Positions 9,339-27,440 of a stretch of 64,000 bases of DNA are shown here, one piece after another. Made by a program: the position numbers and the translations under genes. The DNA is from Lutjanus erythropterus (lineage: Eukaryota; Chordata; Actinopteri; Lutjaniformes; Lutjanidae), in NCBI GenBank assembly GCA_020091685.1, contig CM034610.1, positions 26,386,094 through 26,450,093 of the forward strand, given 5' to 3'. Position 1 is the stretch's first letter. Every line of letters starts with the position of its first letter. Under the pieces are notes generated by a model that was not told the origin of the DNA, did not search any database, and worked only from the letters and a program-made list of their open reading frames with translations.

Positions 9339-9415
9339 CGTGTGCGAGCGGAGTCCATGTCCAGGACCAGTTTCGCTAAATGTTTCCTTTGTTTCTGGAT
9401 GTTTGGGATTTCCAC
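9339..9415 (-). CDS. arhgap44: arhgap44 exon: BAR domain
   Basis: 77 nt (25 codons + 2). It encodes VEIPNIQKQRKHLAKLVLDM then DSARTR, one of the most conserved stretches of the RICH BAR domain and part of the basic surface expected to meet lipid head groups. The acceptor is CCTCTCAG and the donor GTGAGT. The last two bases CG join G of the next exon to give Arg. Confidence 0.94.
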
Positions 9416-11812: not shown

Positions 11813-11924
11813 CTCTGCGAGGTCGTACAGTGGCTCGATGACGTCTCTCTCGATGGTGAGCTCGAACAAGATGAGCTCCTGGGCGAGTCTTTCCTGCGTC
11901 TCGCCACAGAGCTTCAGCATCTTC
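11813..11924 (-). CDS. arhgap44: arhgap44 exon: BAR domain
   Basis: 112 nt (1 + 37 codons). It encodes KMLKLCGETQERLAQELILF and then ELTIERDVIEPLYDLAE, the central BAR helix. The acceptor is GTTGCAG; the donor GTATGA is acceptable but not consensus. The opening G completes Gly from exon 13464-13388. An overlapping antisense frame in the same place is an open-frame shadow of this exon. Confidence 0.94.
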
Positions 11925-13290
11925 CTGCAACAGACAACAGGACCGGCAAACATCAGAGAGCGTGATGATCAAACACAGAGCCTGCGTCACGATGTGAGAT
12001 GGAGGTCTCTGAGGCTGTCACAGTTCTCCTAAATAATACAAAGTGTTTTATATGTCGCTGATATTCATGCAATATCTCTGTAACAAACACTGATGCCCAT
12101 ACATGTCCTGTATGAATTAATGCAGCGAGTGATGTAATAGAGTGTAATTCACATCAGCGGTGGACATGAATGTAGCTTGACATCAACATATAAAACATTT
12201 TTCTCTATTATCTGACATAAAACACACAGACGGTTCTGTCCTCAGAGGTTATTGTGTTTGCAAAAGAGTTAGAGAAGACCAATTTCCACAGATTTTTTTA
12301 TTGTCATACAGACGTCAACTGCAACCAAAGTGACTACCACAGTTTCCTCTACATGCATGGAAGGAGAGAGTGAGATGGGATGTTTGCAATGTGCAAGTTC
12401 ACCGCTAGATGCCACTAAATCCTACACAGTGACCCTTTAAGAACGCTTGCAAATAGACAAAAGACAAGCAAATACAAAACCCCCCCCCAAAAAAAACAGG
12501 TAAATAAAACAGCTTCACGCAGCATTTAGAAAAAGAGCTGCAAAGTGAGAAAACACAACCAAACACAATCAACACTGCAAAACACACAGAACACAACAGA
12601 AATGAGTTTTAAAGAAGTTTAATTAAACTTATGGACTTCACATTATGATTTGCAAATATTTGCAGATCTTCTGAACAGTAACTTTTTTGTCCAGCGGCCA
12701 AATGGCTTGAAAATTTATATTTTTCTGCTTACTGTGTTTATTTTAGGTTCTTCACAACAACAGTCTGCTATAAAGAAATAACAGACCGTAAAATGCTTTA
12801 ATTGACCAATCAGACTTGAGTAGTTAACAGAGCTGTTTAATAAAGCTGTTTAAAACTCCAGTGGGTTGAAAATAGCAAAGTTTTGAAGTTTTATCAAATA
12901 ATGGGGATGCAAAAACACACATTTGTTTCTGGGGCAGCTGCTCTGTGAGAGCAACAGCCAATGGGGAACCTCCTACTCAACCAGATGCACCGATAGTTTA
13001 AAGGTTTAACTTTTTCCCCCAGCTGCTCAGTCAGTCAGTAACGGACAAGTGAATTTGTAGGACTGGCCCTGCTGTTGCAGTCCAGCCAAGAACAAGAAGT
13101 AGATTAGTAGAAGAGCAGTAAAAGAAGTGTAAATTACAGTAAAGAAGTTTTGCCCTCATTTGACTGTATTTATGGACATGAATGGAAAATGCTTTCCGGG
13201 TCACCAGCTGATAAAAACATTCCTTTCCATGTCAGCGCTTTTAGAAAGAAACTGCTGTCAGTGTTGCAGATAAAAGATGATGTAAATTAC
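11925..13290. other. arhgap44 intron with one short dispersed repeat
   Basis: Mostly unassigned. At about 12380-12440 the string CACCGCTAGATGCCACTAAA followed by CCTTTAA matches a frequent teleost interspersed sequence. Confidence 0.5.
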
Positions 13291-13910: not shown

Positions 13911-14015
13911 AGACTTCTTGTCCACGTCCACGCCCTGCTGGCCCTGCAGACAGGCGGTCAACTTCTTGTGTGTGCTGTGGGAAACCTGCTTGACCAGCTC
14001 CAGACGCTTCTCCAC
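13911..14015 (-). CDS. arhgap44: arhgap44 exon: first BAR helix
   Basis: 105 nt, 35 codons, phase 0 at both ends. It encodes VEKRLELVKQVSHSTHKKLT, ACLQGQQG and a DVDKKS end. The first block is, as I remember it, nearly identical to vertebrate ARHGAP44. The donor is taken at GTCAGG after the Ser codon because that keeps the family's DKxSKKLPL join. A GTGAGA site 19 nt farther on (GT at 13892-13891) would add 18 nt (six codons, VRSPSV) in frame and could be an alternative donor. Confidence 0.92.
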
Positions 14016-15421: not shown

Positions 15422-15461
15422 CTGTAGTAGGTCTTCGCTCAGTACTTCTGTTTTTTCAGCC
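15422..15461 (-). CDS. arhgap44: arhgap44 exon: N-terminal microexon-like segment
   Basis: 40 nt (1 + 13 codons), encoding AEKTEVLSEDLLQ, the residues I expect directly after the first coding exon of ARHGAP44 (family start MKKQFNRMRQL...). The acceptor CTTTTTTTCTCTTCCAG is very strong and the donor GTACTA rather weak. The opening G needs a two-base partner from the upstream exon. I searched the minus strand to the right by eye for that exon and did not find it, so it is probably beyond 64000. Confidence 0.9.
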
Positions 15462-18823: not shown

Positions 18824-18837
18824 AAAACTAATTTACT
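18824..18837. repeat. Target-site duplication, 5' copy
   Basis: AAAACTAATTTACT; an identical copy follows the poly(A) at 24907-24920. Its leading A's merge with the tail, so the exact length is 10-14 bp. Confidence 0.9.
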
Positions 18838-18977
18838 GGTGGTGGGATGGAGTGATCGGACGCATGGCGTTTGCTCCCTGACATTTTATCATTTTTAAAT
18901 ATCTACACCCAAGTTTTTGCCACCATTTTTCATTTATCAAGCCCTAAGAAACAACACTACTATTCTATCGAACCAAA

Positions 18978-19874
18978 ATGAGCAAGTCTCACGGCAGTCG
19001 CGGCAAAAGTCAACAACAACTGACTCAACATTTCAGCCCACAAGACAAGGATGCTAGCAAGACGGCTCCCTGTAGCCCCAGCACAGATGCCGCTAGCGCC
19101 CAGCAGCTAACACTTGATATGCTAGTCAGTGAGCTGGAGAAGCTACGTAAGGGCGTAACAGGTGAACTTACCTCCACCTTAACCACTGCTTTGGTCCCAA
19201 TTCAAGCTTCTCTTCAAAAGATTGCGGACACCGTGGCCTCTCATACTGCCGCTATTGCTGGAATGGAGACGGCTCTCAGTGCTCATTCAGACGGAATTAC
19301 CACTCTGGAGAATGAAGTAGCTACACTGAAATCTAAATTGGAGTCCACTACCCAGATGAATGAAAAGTTGCAGCTTGCCATTGAGGATCTGGTCTCCCGT
19401 TCCAAAAGGCAGAACCTACGTGTTATTGGCATCCCAGAGGGAATGGAGGGAGATGATGCCCGACTTTTCATGACTACGCTGTTCAAAGAAGTCACCGGCG
19501 GCGCACTGTTGGATCCCAACCTGGAACTGGACCGAGCGCACCGCAGCTTGGGTCCGAAACCACCGCAAGGCTCCCGGCCCTTCATTGTGCGCTTTCACAA
19601 ATATACGCAGAAGGAGCGTATATTGCAGTGGACCAAGAAGAATCGGGACATCTCATACCGCGGACATTCCATCAGGATTTTTGAAGATTTCAGCGCCACA
19701 CTCGCCAAGAAGCGGGCCACTTTCAACAAAGTGAAGGCTTTGCTGTACAAAGATGGAATACGCTTTGGCCTCATCTACCCAGCCCGTCTGCGGATCACTA
19801 TTAACGGTCAGACTCGTATATTTGACTCCGCTGAGGAAGCAGAGCGTTTCTACCAGGACTCCAGAAGTAAGTGA
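18978..19874 (+). CDS. L1 ORF1 protein (RNA-binding chaperone), 298 aa
   Basis: Start ATG in context CCAAAATGA, stop TGA at the end. The N-terminal ~60 residues are Ser/Gln/Ala-rich and likely disordered. Residues about 75-135 have heptad-like spacing of Leu, Ile and Met, suggesting the trimerising coiled coil. The RRM follows with NLRVIGIPEG at 146-155, and DRAHRSLG near 185-192 is the conserved RNA-binding loop of L1 ORF1p. The C-terminal domain continues with RPFIVRFHKYTQKERIL. In the L1 family this protein coats its own RNA and helps target-primed reverse transcription. Length is close to that of other L1 ORF1 proteins, and no break is seen. Confidence 0.94.
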   Translation: MSKSHGSRGKSQQQLTQHFSPQDKDASKTAPCSPSTDAASAQQLTLDMLVSELEKLRKGVTGELTSTLTTALVPIQASLQKIADTVASHTAAIAGMETALSAHSDGITTLENEVATLKSKLESTTQMNEKLQLAIEDLVSRSKRQNLRVIGIPEGMEGDDARLFMTTLFKEVTGGALLDPNLELDRAHRSLGPKPPQGSRPFIVRFHKYTQKERILQWTKKNRDISYRGHSIRIFEDFSATLAKKRATFNKVKALLYKDGIRFGLIYPARLRITINGQTRIFDSAEEAERFYQDSRSK

Positions 19875-20812
19875 ATGTAGCTGAACTGTGTATCAACGTG
19901 CCCTCTTAATTTTATTTGTCAGTCTTGGGCTATATTTTTCTTATTATCTGAAGAAACTCGGCTGATGGCCTCAGGATTGATCATTTTATTTTATTTATTT
20001 ATTTTTTCTTTTCTTTTCTTTCTCTGTTTCTGGTAACTGAACACAAGCTGCTGACACCCTCTGTAATTTATATTTTGTAGTTATTTATTTTCTCTCTCTG
20101 ATATTTGAATGCAAGCAGCAGAAGACTTCTGAATTTTAATTTATCTTTACTCCTCATTTCAGTAACTGAATACAAGTTACAAGTGACCTATTTATTTATT
20201 TATTTCTATTTTTATTTATTTTCTTTTATTTATTTATTTGTTTATTTATTTATTTATTTTATTTTTTTTCTCAATGACTGGACACAGGCTACAGTTAATC
20301 TCTAATTTGTGTTTTTTGATAATAGAGTGGATGCTGTAGAGGGCCTCTGAATCTTATTTTGTTTTTGGATAACTGAAGAGACACTATAGACTGTATTCGC
20401 CATTTTGTCAAGACTGTTCACACTAAGATTTGTACAGCGAGCACAGTTGACTGCTGTTTATGGGTGTATAAGTACTAATTCATTAGAAGGGCAGCAGACT
20501 ACATCACAGTAGACTGCTGGTGTATAGTATTTCCTGCCTCTCATCTGTCTTTAAAGATGAGTTTAGGACAAGTGTGTAAGTATTTGTTAGGTTTAATGAT
20601 GTCAGTTAAGACATCTGTTATAGTTCAAATATGTGTTTTTTCTTCATCCTTTTCTGCCTTTTTTTTTCCTTATGGGAGGAACTCTTTGTATGTAACCTTG
20701 CATTGTGACAGTGTGTTTGTTGTTGATTCCTTGCTCGGTACTATTCACTCCATTTGGCTAACTTTTCATGTCAACGCTTCACTCCAAAGTCCGATATTAA
20801 GGTTTATGTTAA
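19875..20812 (+). other. L1 inter-ORF spacer with degenerate internal repeats
   Basis: 938 nt without a long frame. It contains about five or six decayed units of roughly 60-110 bp, each with a motif like TAACTGAACACAAGCTGC... CTCTGAATTTTATTTT, followed by TTTA-rich runs (20160-20265). It is much longer than the short ORF1-ORF2 gap of mammalian L1. It could hold a second promoter or the signal for ORF2 translation; this is inference. Confidence 0.6.
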
Positions 20813-23800
20813 ATGGTTGATATAGGTCAGAGAGACAGACTGGGATCCATTAGGTTTGCAAGTTGGAATGTCAGGGGTCTTGGCGGACCAATCAAACGTG
20901 CCAGAGTATTTGCCCATCTTAAGACTATGAAAACAGAAATTGCCTTTCTTCAGGAAACCCACCTACGTTTATGTGATCACACTAGACTGCGTAAACCCTG
21001 GATTGGACAGGTTTTCCACTCTAGCTTTAACACCCGCTCAAGAGGTACAGCCATTTTACTGCATAAGCGGCTACAGTTTTCACCAGGACAAATTATTTCA
21101 GACCCCAATGGGCGTTTTATTATTGTTGTGGGCATATTGTTTCAAACCCCGGTCATTCTGGTATCTGTCTATGCTCCCAACTGGGATTGCCCTAACTTTA
21201 TGTCCTCCTTATTTTCTTCAATTCCATGTCTGGATTCACACCACCTTATATTAGGAGGAGATCTCAATCTAGTTGCTAATCCTGCCCTTGACAAATCAGA
21301 CCCTAGAAACCTAACCCCATCTAATATGGCTAGAGCTCTTATGTCACTTACAGATCAGATTGGCTGTGTAGATGTGTGGCGTTTTCAACACCCAACAACA
21401 AAGGAGTTTTCATTCTATTCGCCTGTTCATCAGACATACTCCCGCATTGACTACTTCTTTTTAGATAAAGTACTCCTTCCTTCAGTGAAATTATGTGAAT
21501 ATTCTGCATTAGTCATCTCAGATCATACCCCCCTTCTATTGGATTTGGAGTTGGTTCCTAAATGTGGAAATCATCCAAACTGGAGATTGAACACTGGTCT
21601 ATTATCCTCAAAAAATTTTTGCAATTTTATTTCTGAGAAGATTTCTTTCTTTATTCAGAGTAACAAATCCGATTCAATCTCTCCTTCCCTACTATGGGAA
21701 ACTTTTAAAGTAGTAATACGTGGGGAGATCATTTCTTACAATGCAAGAATACGTAAACAGGAAAAACAAAAGCAACAGGAGCTGATGGAAGCTATTCTGA
21801 AAATTGACAGACAACACTCTCTTTCTCCAAGTCCCAGTCTCAGGATGGAGAGACTCAAGCTCCAAACCGAATTTGATCTTATATCCACAAATAAAGCAGA
21901 GCTTCTTCTAAGGCGCACAAAGGGTACCTATTATGAGTATGGCGATAAGGCCAGCCGGCTGCTAGCACTGCAACTTAAGCGTCGATCCGCTTCTCGATTC
22001 ATTACTAAAATTCGCAAAAACCCACAAACTGTAGTTACAGACCCTACTGAGATAAATAAGGTCTTTGCTCTCTATTACACCAATCTTTACAAGTCAGAAG
22101 CCCCATCTGAAAATTCTTCAATGAATAAGTTTCTGGACAATTTAGATTTCCCTACAATCGATGAAACAACCAAAATTATTTTAGAAGCCCCACTCCGTCT
22201 GGAAGAGGTTTCAGCCACTCTTAAATCAATGCAGAATGGCAAAGCACCAGGCCCAGATGGCTTCCCAGCTGATTTTTTAAAGAAATTTTCCGATGAGTTA
22301 GCTCCATTGTTACTGGATATGTTCAACGATTCTTTACAGCATGGTAGTCTCCCTTTATCCTTAAGTCAAGCATCGATTTCACTAATTCCAAAGAAAAATA
22401 AAGATCCAGAAGAATGTAGCAGTTGGAGACCAGTTAGTTTGCTTAACTCTGACGTGAAATTGTTAGCCAAGATCCTTGCTAACCGTCTTGACCCCTGCTT
22501 ACCAGGTATTATCTCTGGTGACCAAACTGGTTTCATAAAGGGCAGACAGCTATCCTCTAATATTCGTCGCCTGCTTAATATAATATTGTCTAAATCAAAG
22601 ACACCGGACGCTGAAATGGTGATTGCTATGGATGCAGAGAAAGCATTCGACCGCGTGGAGTGGGGTTATTTATTTTCAGTTCTTAACAGATTTGGTTTTG
22701 GGCAAAGGTACATTTCATGGATTCAGCTGTTATATAGTGCCCCTACTGCTAGTGTGATTACTAACTCAACTCAATCTGATCTCTTCTCCTTAACGCGTGG
22801 CTGCCGCCAAGGTTGTCCTTTGTCACCTGCACTGTTTGCTCTTGCAATTGAACCGCTTTCTATTGCCCTTAGGAGCTCTCCACATTTCACTGGTATCTAC
22901 AGAGATGGGATCGAGCACAGGGTCTCACTTTACGCTGATGACCTTTTGCTTTATGTCTCAAACCCTATGGCATGCATCAATAATATTCTTGACATTTTAC
23001 AAACATTTGGCTCCTTTTCAGGCTACAAGCTGAACATTAGCAAAAGTGAATGTTTTCCTCTTAATACCGCTGCAAAACAGATTACAGCTCAGTCGCTTCC
23101 TTTCCACCTGGCCTCCTCTGGCTTTCAATATTTAGGAATTAACATTTCACATAGTCTCACTTCACTCTATAAGCATAATATTTTGAAATTGGTTAAGGAG
23201 GTAAAATCAGATTTGCAACGCTGGAATACTCTTCCCCTATCACTTTTGGGTAGAATCAACTCAATTAAAATGGATGTTTTACCCAGGTTTCTATTCCTTT
23301 TTCAGTGTTTACCAATATTTCTTCCCCTATCTTTTTTTAAGCAACTAGACAGGAATATTTCATCTTTTATTTGGGCAGGGAAGACCCCAAGGACTAAACA
23401 TTGTATTTTACAAATGACTAAAGAAGATGGTGGGTTTGCACTACCTAATTTTCTGGCATACTATTGGGCAGCCAATATTCAAAAAATCCACACTTGGCAC
23501 AATTTCCCTTTTACAGATTGGTGTCAGATGGAAGCTCGCTCTTGTAACTCTACCTCTTTGTCAGCTTTAATTTGTACTCCTGTAAATTCATACCCTGCCA
23601 AATACACATCTAACCCGATTATCTTATCTACTATAAAGATTTGGAAGCAGTTTAGACGTCATTTTAAAATCGTTTCTCCTTCCCTTTCAATGCCCATCTG
23701 CAACAACCATCTATTCCAGCCTTCAGCTCTTGACCCGGTCTTCTCTGTGTGGAAGGAGAAAGGTCTGGTTCATTTTAATCAATTTTTTGTGGGCAATGTC

Positions 23801-24610
23801 TTTGTATCTTTTGACAATCTCAAGACTACATTTGACCTCCCACAATCTCATTTATTTAGATATTTTCAAATCCGAGACTTTGTGCGCTGCAACTTTCCTA
23901 ACTTTCCCAATAAACCACCTGATTCTATTATTGATACAGTTCTAGCCGTCCCTGTAGTCCGTGGATTCATCTCAGCTGTGGTGAAGCCAATCATATCATT
24001 ATCATCACGTCCCCTGAAATCTAGGAATACTTGGGAAAAAGAACTTGGTACTCTCTTCTCAGCTGAGTGGTGGCTGAGGGCCCTTGACAGGGTCAGTTCT
24101 ACTTCATCCTGTGCTAGTTTGACACTGATCCAGTTTAAGGTCTTACATAGGACACACCTATCCAAAGTCAAACTTGATAAACTGTTTAACACAGGTGATG
24201 TGTGTGACAGATGCTGTTTATCCCCTGCCAATCACACACATATGTTTTTTTCCTGTCCAAAGCTGAGTTCATTTTGGTCCTCTTTTTATGATACACTTTC
24301 AAAAGCTCTAAATAAACCTGTAATTCCAAGCCCATTGACCTCTATTTTTGGTGTCCCTAAAGAATTCATTTGTTTTACCTCAAAGGAGAGCAATATCATT
24401 GCTTTTGCCTCTGTGGTTGCCCGCAGGCGTATCTTACTTCACTGGAAGGATCAGAAGCCTCCATCTTCTAATTCTTGGCTGAAAGACTTAATGTCCTTCC
24501 TATACTTAGAGAAAATTAAGTATAGTATAAGGGGTCACTCTGAAAAATTTAACAATATTTGGGATCCTATTCTGTCCTATGTCAATTCTATTCCTTCTCT
24601 GGAAGATTAA
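20813..24610 (+). CDS. L1 ORF2 protein: endonuclease-reverse transcriptase, 1265 aa
   Basis: An N-terminal APE-type endonuclease shows catalytic residues N19 (WNVRG), E48 (LQETH), D150/N152 (GGDLN), D213 (RIDY) and D237/H238 (SDHTPL). The reverse transcriptase follows, with GPDGFPADF, SLIPKKNKDPE, WRPVSLLN, QTGFIKGRQ, D607 in DAEKAFDRVEW, RQGCPLSPALFALAIEP and the YADD active site at 707-710. A C-terminal cysteine motif C1131-x2-C1134 ... H1141/H1143 ... C1148 is typical of the L1 group. No stop or frameshift is present and every catalytic residue I can place is intact. The protein nicks target DNA and copies the element RNA in place. The start chosen is the first ATG, just upstream of the endonuclease fold. 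Confidence 0.97.
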   Translation: MVDIGQRDRLGSIRFASWNVRGLGGPIKRARVFAHLKTMKTEIAFLQETHLRLCDHTRLRKPWIGQVFHSSFNTRSRGTAILLHKRLQFSPGQIISDPNGRFIIVVGILFQTPVILVSVYAPNWDCPNFMSSLFSSIPCLDSHHLILGGDLNLVANPALDKSDPRNLTPSNMARALMSLTDQIGCVDVWRFQHPTTKEFSFYSPVHQTYSRIDYFFLDKVLLPSVKLCEYSALVISDHTPLLLDLELVPKCGNHPNWRLNTGLLSSKNFCNFISEKISFFIQSNKSDSISPSLLWETFKVVIRGEIISYNARIRKQEKQKQQELMEAILKIDRQHSLSPSPSLRMERLKLQTEFDLISTNKAELLLRRTKGTYYEYGDKASRLLALQLKRRSASRFITKIRKNPQTVVTDPTEINKVFALYYTNLYKSEAPSENSSMNKFLDNLDFPTIDETTKIILEAPLRLEEVSATLKSMQNGKAPGPDGFPADFLKKFSDELAPLLLDMFNDSLQHGSLPLSLSQASISLIPKKNKDPEECSSWRPVSLLNSDVKLLAKILANRLDPCLPGIISGDQTGFIKGRQLSSNIRRLLNIILSKSKTPDAEMVIAMDAEKAFDRVEWGYLFSVLNRFGFGQRYISWIQLLYSAPTASVITNSTQSDLFSLTRGCRQGCPLSPALFALAIEPLSIALRSSPHFTGIYRDGIEHRVSLYADDLLLYVSNPMACINNILDILQTFGSFSGYKLNISKSECFPLNTAAKQITAQSLPFHLASSGFQYLGINISHSLTSLYKHNILKLVKEVKSDLQRWNTLPLSLLGRINSIKMDVLPRFLFLFQCLPIFLPLSFFKQLDRNISSFIWAGKTPRTKHCILQMTKEDGGFALPNFLAYYWAANIQKIHTWHNFPFTDWCQMEARSCNSTSLSALICTPVNSYPAKYTSNPIILSTIKIWKQFRRHFKIVSPSLSMPICNNHLFQPSALDPVFSVWKEKGLVHFNQFFVGNVFVSFDNLKTTFDLPQSHLFRYFQIRDFVRCNFPNFPNKPPDSIIDTVLAVPVVRGFISAVVKPIISLSSRPLKSRNTWEKELGTLFSAEWWLRALDRVSSTSSCASLTLIQFKVLHRTHLSKVKLDKLFNTGDVCDRCCLSPANHTHMFFSCPKLSSFWSSFYDTLSKALNKPVIPSPLTSIFGVPKEFICFTSKESNIIAFASVVARRRILLHWKDQKPPSSNSWLKDLMSFLYLEKIKYSIRGHSEKFNNIWDPILSYVNSIPSLED

Positions 24611-24877
24611 CATAATATATTAAGTTGTATTGAGGAGTGAATGGTACATGTAGCCCTACACACAATACACTTAAATTTTAGAATTTCTTTCAGTTCCTCC
24701 CATATGTGGGTTTGACTTGTTTGTCTGTTGTTTTGATGTTGTGTTTGTTAACACAGGTTTGGCTCTCAAGTTGGTGAAGTAGTAGGGTCAGCTTGTGTTT
24801 TGTGTTTATATAGTTGTTTAAAATGTAAAAATGGGTGACATGTCACACTGTGGATATACATCATATATTGATAACCC

Positions 24878-24910
24878 AATAAAGATACATGTGAAAAAAA
24901 AAAAAAAAAA
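24878..24910 (+). terminator. L1 polyadenylation signal and A tail
   Basis: AATAAA at 24878-24883 lies 11 nt before an uninterrupted A17 run (24894-24910) that joins the 3' target-site duplication. The clean tail is another sign of youth. Confidence 0.92.
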
Positions 24911-24920
24911 CTAATTTACT
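24907..24920. repeat. Target-site duplication, 3' copy
   Basis: AAAACTAATTTACT, identical to 18824-18837. Confidence 0.9.
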
Positions 24921-26744: not shown

Positions 26745-27440
26745 GTTCGTCCCAGAACCTTCTGAAGAACCCTTTTTTTTAAAGACAGGATTTGTCAAAG
26801 GTTCTTGGTAAAACTAAGGGTTCCATCAAGGACCCTTTTCCTCCAAAAATCCAAATCCAAATTTCCTGGCAGAACCCTCTGAGTGTGTTCTAGATAAAAC
26901 CTTGGAAATATTAAAAAGTTCTCAATAGAACCCCTTAGTGGGCTCTAGATAAAACCCTTGGACTATAAAAATGTTCTCAGTCGAACCAAGAGTGTGCTCT
27001 AGATGAAATCACTTGGAATATAAAAAAGGTTCTTGGTAGAACCTCCTGAATGTGTTCTAGATAAAACCCTTGGAATATAAGAAAGGGTTCTGAGTAGAAC
27101 CCCATTAGGTATTCTGGAGTGTTTTCTTGATAAAACTACTGGAATGTAAAAGTGTTCTCGATAAAACTCCCTTGATGGGTTCTAGATAAAACCACTGGAA
27201 TTTAAAAAGGTTCTTAGGAGAACCCAGAGTGTATTCTCAATAAAATCCCTTGGGATACAAAAAGGTTCTCAGCACAGATGGTTCTAGTCCTAATCCTTTA
27301 TGTCGGGTTCTGGGTAGGATTCTCTGTAAGGGTTGCAAGTAGGACTTGGTTCCACTAGGAACAAAAAAAGGGGTTATACTGTGAGAACAAACCAAAGAAC
27401 CCTTTATGGTTCTAAATAGCAGCTTTATTTCTAAGAGTGT
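26745..27440 (+). repeat. Tandem AGAACCC-type repeat, period about 56 bp
   Basis: At least seven units between 26889 and 27290, each starting near TCTAGATAAAACCCTTGGAA, then TATAAAAAGGTTCT and AGTAGAACCCC. The flanks carry AGAACCCTTTATGGTTCT and end with TTTATTTCTAAGAGTGTA, which I know as a frequent teleost repeat end. Confidence 0.85.

Follow-up and report, generated by a model that had tools for sequence, protein, structure and literature searches.

The window analysed here, the whole stretch of 64,000 nucleotides (nt) at C20:26386094-26450093 of the Lutjanus erythropterus assembly GCA_020091685.1 (937.6 Mb, 444 contigs), carries an L1-type retrotransposon in which both open reading frames, ORF1 and ORF2, are unbroken. 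The element very probably inserted only very recently, with just 9-10 nt of the 5' end missing, as a member of a low-copy teleost L1 family and by ordinary target-primed reverse transcription. The family itself has been recently active in this species.

Both ends of the element point to integration of the L1 type. Its left flank reads TT/AAAA, it terminates in poly-A, and its duplication, in the range near 15 bp, is 14 bp long; the original prediction had reported a perfect match of at least 10 bp and a run of 17 A, and the duplication proved to be identical at all of its 14 positions (Table 1). Across the 64 kb, on both strands, CTAATTTACT is found only at the two duplication sites, its chance of occurring at a given position being about 4e-6 by local composition. 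According to an extract of one report, duplications are about 15 bp in human L1 compared with 5 bp in ZfL2-1 (PMC4245944). ORF2p would have nicked the bottom strand at TTTT/AA, and the T-rich end so freed would have served as primer for reverse transcription, which began in the poly-A of an element RNA bound by ORF1p. Synthesis of the cDNA would have reached the 5' end of this RNA exactly or to within about 10 nt, and second-strand cleavage would have left the duplication.

Assignment to the L1 type was borne out by both proteins. ORF2 is collinear with human L1 ORF2p (608 bits, E 3.1e-181, residues 13-1233) with an AP-like endonuclease and a reverse transcriptase, and it matched the Pfam families RVT_1 (2e-40) and Exo_endo_phos (4.5e-12). 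The endonuclease and reverse transcriptase motifs were each located once in ORF2 (WNVRGL at 18, QETHL at 47, VYAPN at 119, GGDLNL at 148, YSRIDYF at 209, VISDHTP at 234, MDAEKAFD at 606, RQGCPLSP at 665 and YADD at 707), and CX3CX7HX4C, the C-terminal motif of L1, is present at 1131-1148. By sequence, ORF1 resembles human ORF1p weakly (9.6e-10), and its Pfam match to Transposase_22 (16.2 bits) falls under the cut-off of 22.4. Its structure, predicted from a 52-row alignment (51 relatives chosen from 102) with a mean pLDDT of 86.5, comprises 45 unstructured residues, a helix of 98 residues, an RRM and a C-terminal domain, the domain names being assigned by comparison with human ORF1p. All 12 of the best PDB fold matches of this model were LINE-1 ORF1p (2ykp, 2yko and 2ykq among them), and ORF1 is thus predicted to have the coiled coil, RRM and C-terminal domain of an L1 protein.

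Table 1. Features of the L1-type element and its integration site (positions in the window)
Feature	Position	Strand	Remarks
Left target-site duplication AAAACTAATTTACT	18824-18837		14/14 identical; endonuclease site TT/AAAA
L1-type retrotransposon	18838-24893	+	ORF1 and ORF2 unbroken, poly-A, target-site duplication
5' untranslated region (UTR), 140 bp	18838-18977	+	ATGGCG (YY1-core-like) at element position 27
ORF1, 298 aa	18978-19874	+	unstructured N-terminus, coiled-coil helix 46-143, RRM, C-terminal domain (predicted)
PIP-box-like motif QQQLTQHF, ORF1 residues 12-19	19011-19034	+	putative, sequence motif
AT-rich spacer between ORF1 and ORF2, 938 bp	19875-20812	+	
ATG frame of 87 codons, running into the start of ORF2	20557-20820	+	no codon-position signal; probably noncoding
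ORF2, 1265 aa	20813-24610	+	AP-like endonuclease, reverse transcriptase, C-terminal CX3CX7HX4C
3' UTR, 283 bp	24611-24893	+	AATAAA at 24878-24883
Poly-A, 17 A	24894-24910	+	up to 4 A may be shared with the duplication
Right target-site duplication AAAACTAATTTACT	24907-24920		14/14 identical

Copies in the host assembly were surveyed with four probes, for which all counts are lower bounds. The reverse transcriptase probe gave at least 19 rows, including the window, C8 (98%) and C20b (C20:32.92 Mb; 85-91% in two main pieces), the rest being shorter or more distant pieces. At least five rows were obtained with the spacer/endonuclease probe (window, C8 98%, C20b 84%, C24 92%, C4 80%) and at least ten, at no fewer than five places, with the 5' probe (window, C8 97%, C20b 77-81% and, in pieces, C24 88-95% and C4 77-89%). 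The 3' probe gave at least 43 rows from 38 candidates at 65-100% identity; as identity goes down to 65%, some of these rows belong to other families, and comparison with the 5' probe indicates that most 3' matches have no 5' counterpart. Of the places recovered, the window and C8 alone combine near-completeness with near-identity. The family is therefore small in this assembly, and its copies can be listed nearly one by one.

The age of the window copy was read from these copies. Over the 5963 bases that BLAST aligned, C8 and the window copy differ by 39 substitutions (0.65%); identity is 97.8% when deletions are counted. The gaps of C8 are one-sided (MAFFT counts 64 deletions but not a single insertion; BLAST counts 69 deletions, 52 of them single bases in a run, and one insertion), in contrast to C24, where the compared part shows 96 substitutions, seven deletions and one insertion. 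The C8 deletions (C8:19440900-19447000) probably represent uncorrected long-read error in a locally unpolished assembly, and they are so many that the C8 frames are broken as assembled. C8 has a poly-A and a duplication of its own (TGACTCTGCAT plus up to five A). When the 39 differences were polarised with ten outgroup copies (C24, C20b, C3b, C19, C13, C5, C3a, C18, C4 and C3c), 28 were C8-derived (three gap-adjacent) and two window-derived (one gap-adjacent); five showed both states in the outgroups, three had no outgroup and one was of another kind. Six of the C8 changes cluster at 21713-21722 and may be error. With only two of the 39 window-derived, the window's own branch amounts to about 1-2 changes in 6056 bases, and even seven would give an upper bound of 0.24%. 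A bound drawn from the intact frames alone (d at most about 0.4-0.5% if indel rates are assumed and 1.7% otherwise) was superseded by this comparison. The window copy is a very young insertion, as had been proposed, its closest relatives (C8 at 0.65%, four short copies at 0-1.1%) staying short of the 5-10% divergence set as a limit by the original prediction.

The short copies add to this picture. Flanks were inspected at 11 of 12 loci, the twelfth being more of C8. Four of them have perfect duplications, namely C10 (181 bp, two mismatches, 15-bp duplication), C1 (153 bp, one mismatch, 14 bp), C14 (61 bp, no mismatch, 16 bp) and C16 (57 bp, no mismatch, 15 bp). Together they show three mismatches in 452 bp (98.9-100% identity) and have in common the 3' end base and a poly-A, the first A of the duplication perhaps being shared with the tail. 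The copies C13, C18, C5, C24 and those on C3 at 32.66 Mb and 10.12 Mb show identities of 89-97% in their main pieces. Duplication candidates were short or misplaced at C13 (11 nt), C18 (8 nt) and C3 at 32.66 Mb (6 nt), and none was present in the inspected flanks of C5 and C3 at 10.12 Mb; the ends used for C24 were set by a stray match. The copy C3b (C3, 30.51 Mb; 91%) has a 15-bp candidate duplication one base off the junction. C3b (C3:30504500-30513500) also carries 29 deletions against five insertions and little third-position excess, and it is perhaps unpolished or was dead on arrival.

At its 5' end C8 has GGAGGATCAC ahead of GTGGTGGGATGG, where the window has a single G. C24 reads GGATCAC at this place, adjoining its match, seven nt which are common to C8. 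The window copy either lacks 9-10 nt of the C8 5' end or began at a later start site. The claim that it is complete is nearly right, with this one correction. In C8 and C24 the extra nucleotides complete an E-box-like palindrome, CACGTG, at the very point where the window copy starts. A little downstream lies ATGGCG, which occurs seven times in the 64 kb on both strands, corresponding to 0.002 expected per 40 nt of one strand. An excerpt on human L1 describes YY1 at nt 12-22 directing starts at varying purines (PMC2912911); the likeness of the fish ATGGCG to that site may be read as an analogy, drawn post hoc.

Substitutions between the window and older copies fall preferentially on third codon positions, in ORF1 (27:18:52 against C20b, 15:6:24 against C4 and 1:1:4 against C24) as well as in ORF2 (103:98:162 against C20b, 30:21:47 against C4, 59:62:106 against C19 and 11:8:18 against C24), which indicates that both frames have been under selection in the active lineage.

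Several observations weigh against the reading as a very recent, nearly complete insertion. Copies may be missing from the assembly or collapsed in it. MAFFT counts 60 substitutions between C8 and the window, some of them beside gaps, and the outgroups cover the element unevenly, only one or two old copies being available at many ORF2 positions. In its ORF2, C3b has hardly any third-position excess (22:19:24). Judged from its sequence, the window promoter may be weaker without the E-box-like CACGTG. Finally, both short young copies which cover position 24783, C10 and C1, have G where the window has T.

This last position bears on the suggestion of the original prediction that the element may be a live source. 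A source that currently seeds other copies would agree with the intact frames, a near-zero private branch and family members less than 1.1% away, and the window copy may be retrotransposition-competent. The T at 24783 is private to the window, with G in all nine of the other copies read there (C8, C10, C1, C24, C19, C13, C5, C3a and C18); the site is gapped in C3b, and C14, C16 and the remaining copies do not reach it. C8 in turn has a private A at 24791 which is not in C10 or C1. As these private bases are absent from C10 and C1, neither the window copy nor C8 looks like their parent, which may be unsampled or polymorphic. No progeny of the window copy was seen among the host-assembly copies, 9-10 nt are gone from its 5' end, and a role as live source therefore appears rather unlikely.

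Intact frames with a third-position excess would also be expected of an old L1 insertion that selection has preserved intact as a domesticated gene. The excess belongs to the active lineage, as it was measured against older copies, and the perfect duplication and tail, the 0.65% distance from C8 and the mere two window-derived differences among 39 reduce the probability of domestication to a nearly negligible level. A mosaic element, whose ORF1 and ORF2 would come from different sources, was considered as well. A search with ORF1 found 102 relatives, the best at 78-79%; full-length ORF2 found 635 proteins, and among the best 120 the top one (P0001) is only 60% identical over its full length. 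The GC content also differs (ORF1 51%, ORF2 40%). However, vertebrate L1 in general have an ORF1 less AT-rich than ORF2, according to part of a published survey (PMC7140322), and in the host both frames are matched together at a single place, C8. A search with ORF2 residues 560-1260 found 1574 proteins, with P0223 at 80.4% over 735 aa as the top one among the best 120; P0223 and P0122 (ORF1, 77.9%) are both on ENA contigs of 29,074 bases, and this equal length suggests that they are probably one linked pair. A mosaic origin is accordingly very improbable, and the recent insertion of a single low-copy L1 is preferred. In a 45-row tree, built without P0223 from the window element and 44 among the best 120 ORF2 relatives, P0053 (73-74% identical to ORF2) adjoins the window with a support of 100. 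Nine pattern matches in viral contigs included no relative, and plasmids gave no match.

For the remainder of the element, the 87-codon frame ahead of ORF2 was considered as a coding sequence and rejected, there being no third-position excess against three older copies (6:10:6 for C20b, 17:14:16 for C4 and 4:1:0 for C24). In 2000 shuffles, the fraction that had a frame of this size ending at the ORF2 start was 0.003, and the fraction with such a frame anywhere in the spacer was 0.03. The sequence 24611-24910 folds no better than shuffles (z 1.05), giving no sign of a structured 3' RNA, and no Rfam family was matched. Neither blastn of the element nor tblastn of 222 proteins found other L1 pieces in the window.

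The element lies antisense to a minus-strand gene which we take to be arhgap44 from its peptides, 3.4 kb upstream of exon 2. Exon-like stretches of this gene were recognized at 15422-15460 (exon 2, bounded by ag and gt), 13959-13997, 11900-11929, 9377-9412, 2675-2734, 1127-1465 and 334-684. No exon 1 was recognized within the 64 kb, and the intronic position that had been predicted is for this reason deduced from the splice acceptor at exon 2. When four of the arhgap44-like frames were compared with Pfam, one gave a match to RhoGAP and another to BAR, each below the cut-off, and two were unmatched. The window also contains a minisatellite (1-295) with GCTAACGTTAGC-like words as the basis of its 26/52/104-bp units and a tandem array of about four 55-bp units (26871-27103).

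The N-terminus of ORF1 contains QQQLTQHF, which resembles a canonical PCNA-interacting protein (PIP) box and sits in a region otherwise predicted to be unstructured. Among the 102 ORF1 relatives, some of which are cut short at the N-terminus, the strict motif occurs within the first 60 residues of eight (shuffle mean 0.1, maximum 2) and the relaxed motif in 11 (shuffle mean 0.5, maximum 3). In 14 relatives hand-picked from the 102, mean identity is 0.78 in the motif, compared with 0.69 and 0.48 in its flanks and 0.71-0.74 in the folded parts. Three distant relatives (P0198, P0202 and P0205) have QKSITPFT or QKTITPFT near the N-terminus. The PIP reading is weakened by the eight carriers being mostly close kin rather than independent, and by loss or alteration of the motif in the close kin P0122, P0123, P0129, P0131-P0133, P0134, P0135 and P0143. 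At the PIP position of human ORF2p, where the human row reads IQTTIREYY with Q, the fish ORF2 has N, as do 116 of 121 rows (the window and the best 120 of 635 ORF2 relatives), with F at the fourth place in 120 and one gap; nearly all aligned relatives read N-x-x-F-x-x-[FY]-Y. An extract of one study places the human PIP box in a helix at 404-419 and finds it needed for retrotransposition (PMC10830420). In human cells the PCNA-bound nuclear L1 complex is depleted of ORF1p, as stated in a portion of another report (PMC5821460), so a contact between ORF1p and PCNA would be a real difference. That PCNA docking has moved from ORF2p to ORF1p in this fish family would be a long shot on these motifs, because the ORF1 motif is common mostly to close kin. 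Among the titles listed by a single literature search, none combined the PIP box with ORF1p and fish, which does not prove that nothing has been published on it. If the ORF1 motif does bind PCNA, one and the same step would be solved in two ways among L1 elements.

Human and mammalian L1 share with the fish element the ORF1p fold, the ORF2p alignment, the endonuclease and reverse transcriptase motifs, CX3CX7HX4C, the TT/AAAA site, poly-A and, taking the window and the short copies together, duplications of 14-16 bp. They differ from it in the lengths usual for the mammalian 5' UTR and spacer, the fish 5' UTR being only 140 bp and the frames being separated by 938 bp, and in the PIP-like motif of the fish ORF1. 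Close named likenesses are to the L1 ORF1 of Seriola dumerili, Chaenocephalus aceratus and Pagothenia borchgrevinki (74-79% identity over 89-100% of the length). Teleost L1, including Swimmer and the Tx1-a/b/c branches, are described in sections of one survey as diverse, recently active and of small genome share (PMC4746887), features of recent activity and low cover which are found here too; at the 80% ORF2 family line given there, the window element is borderline between a new and a known family. Many L1 families are active simultaneously in fish, according to part of a further study (PMC5872511). The window element agrees with this published picture and is ordinary in kind. Its value lies in being a well-preserved young insertion of a tiny family, in which the turnover of fish L1, 5' truncation and the choice of start site can be read directly.

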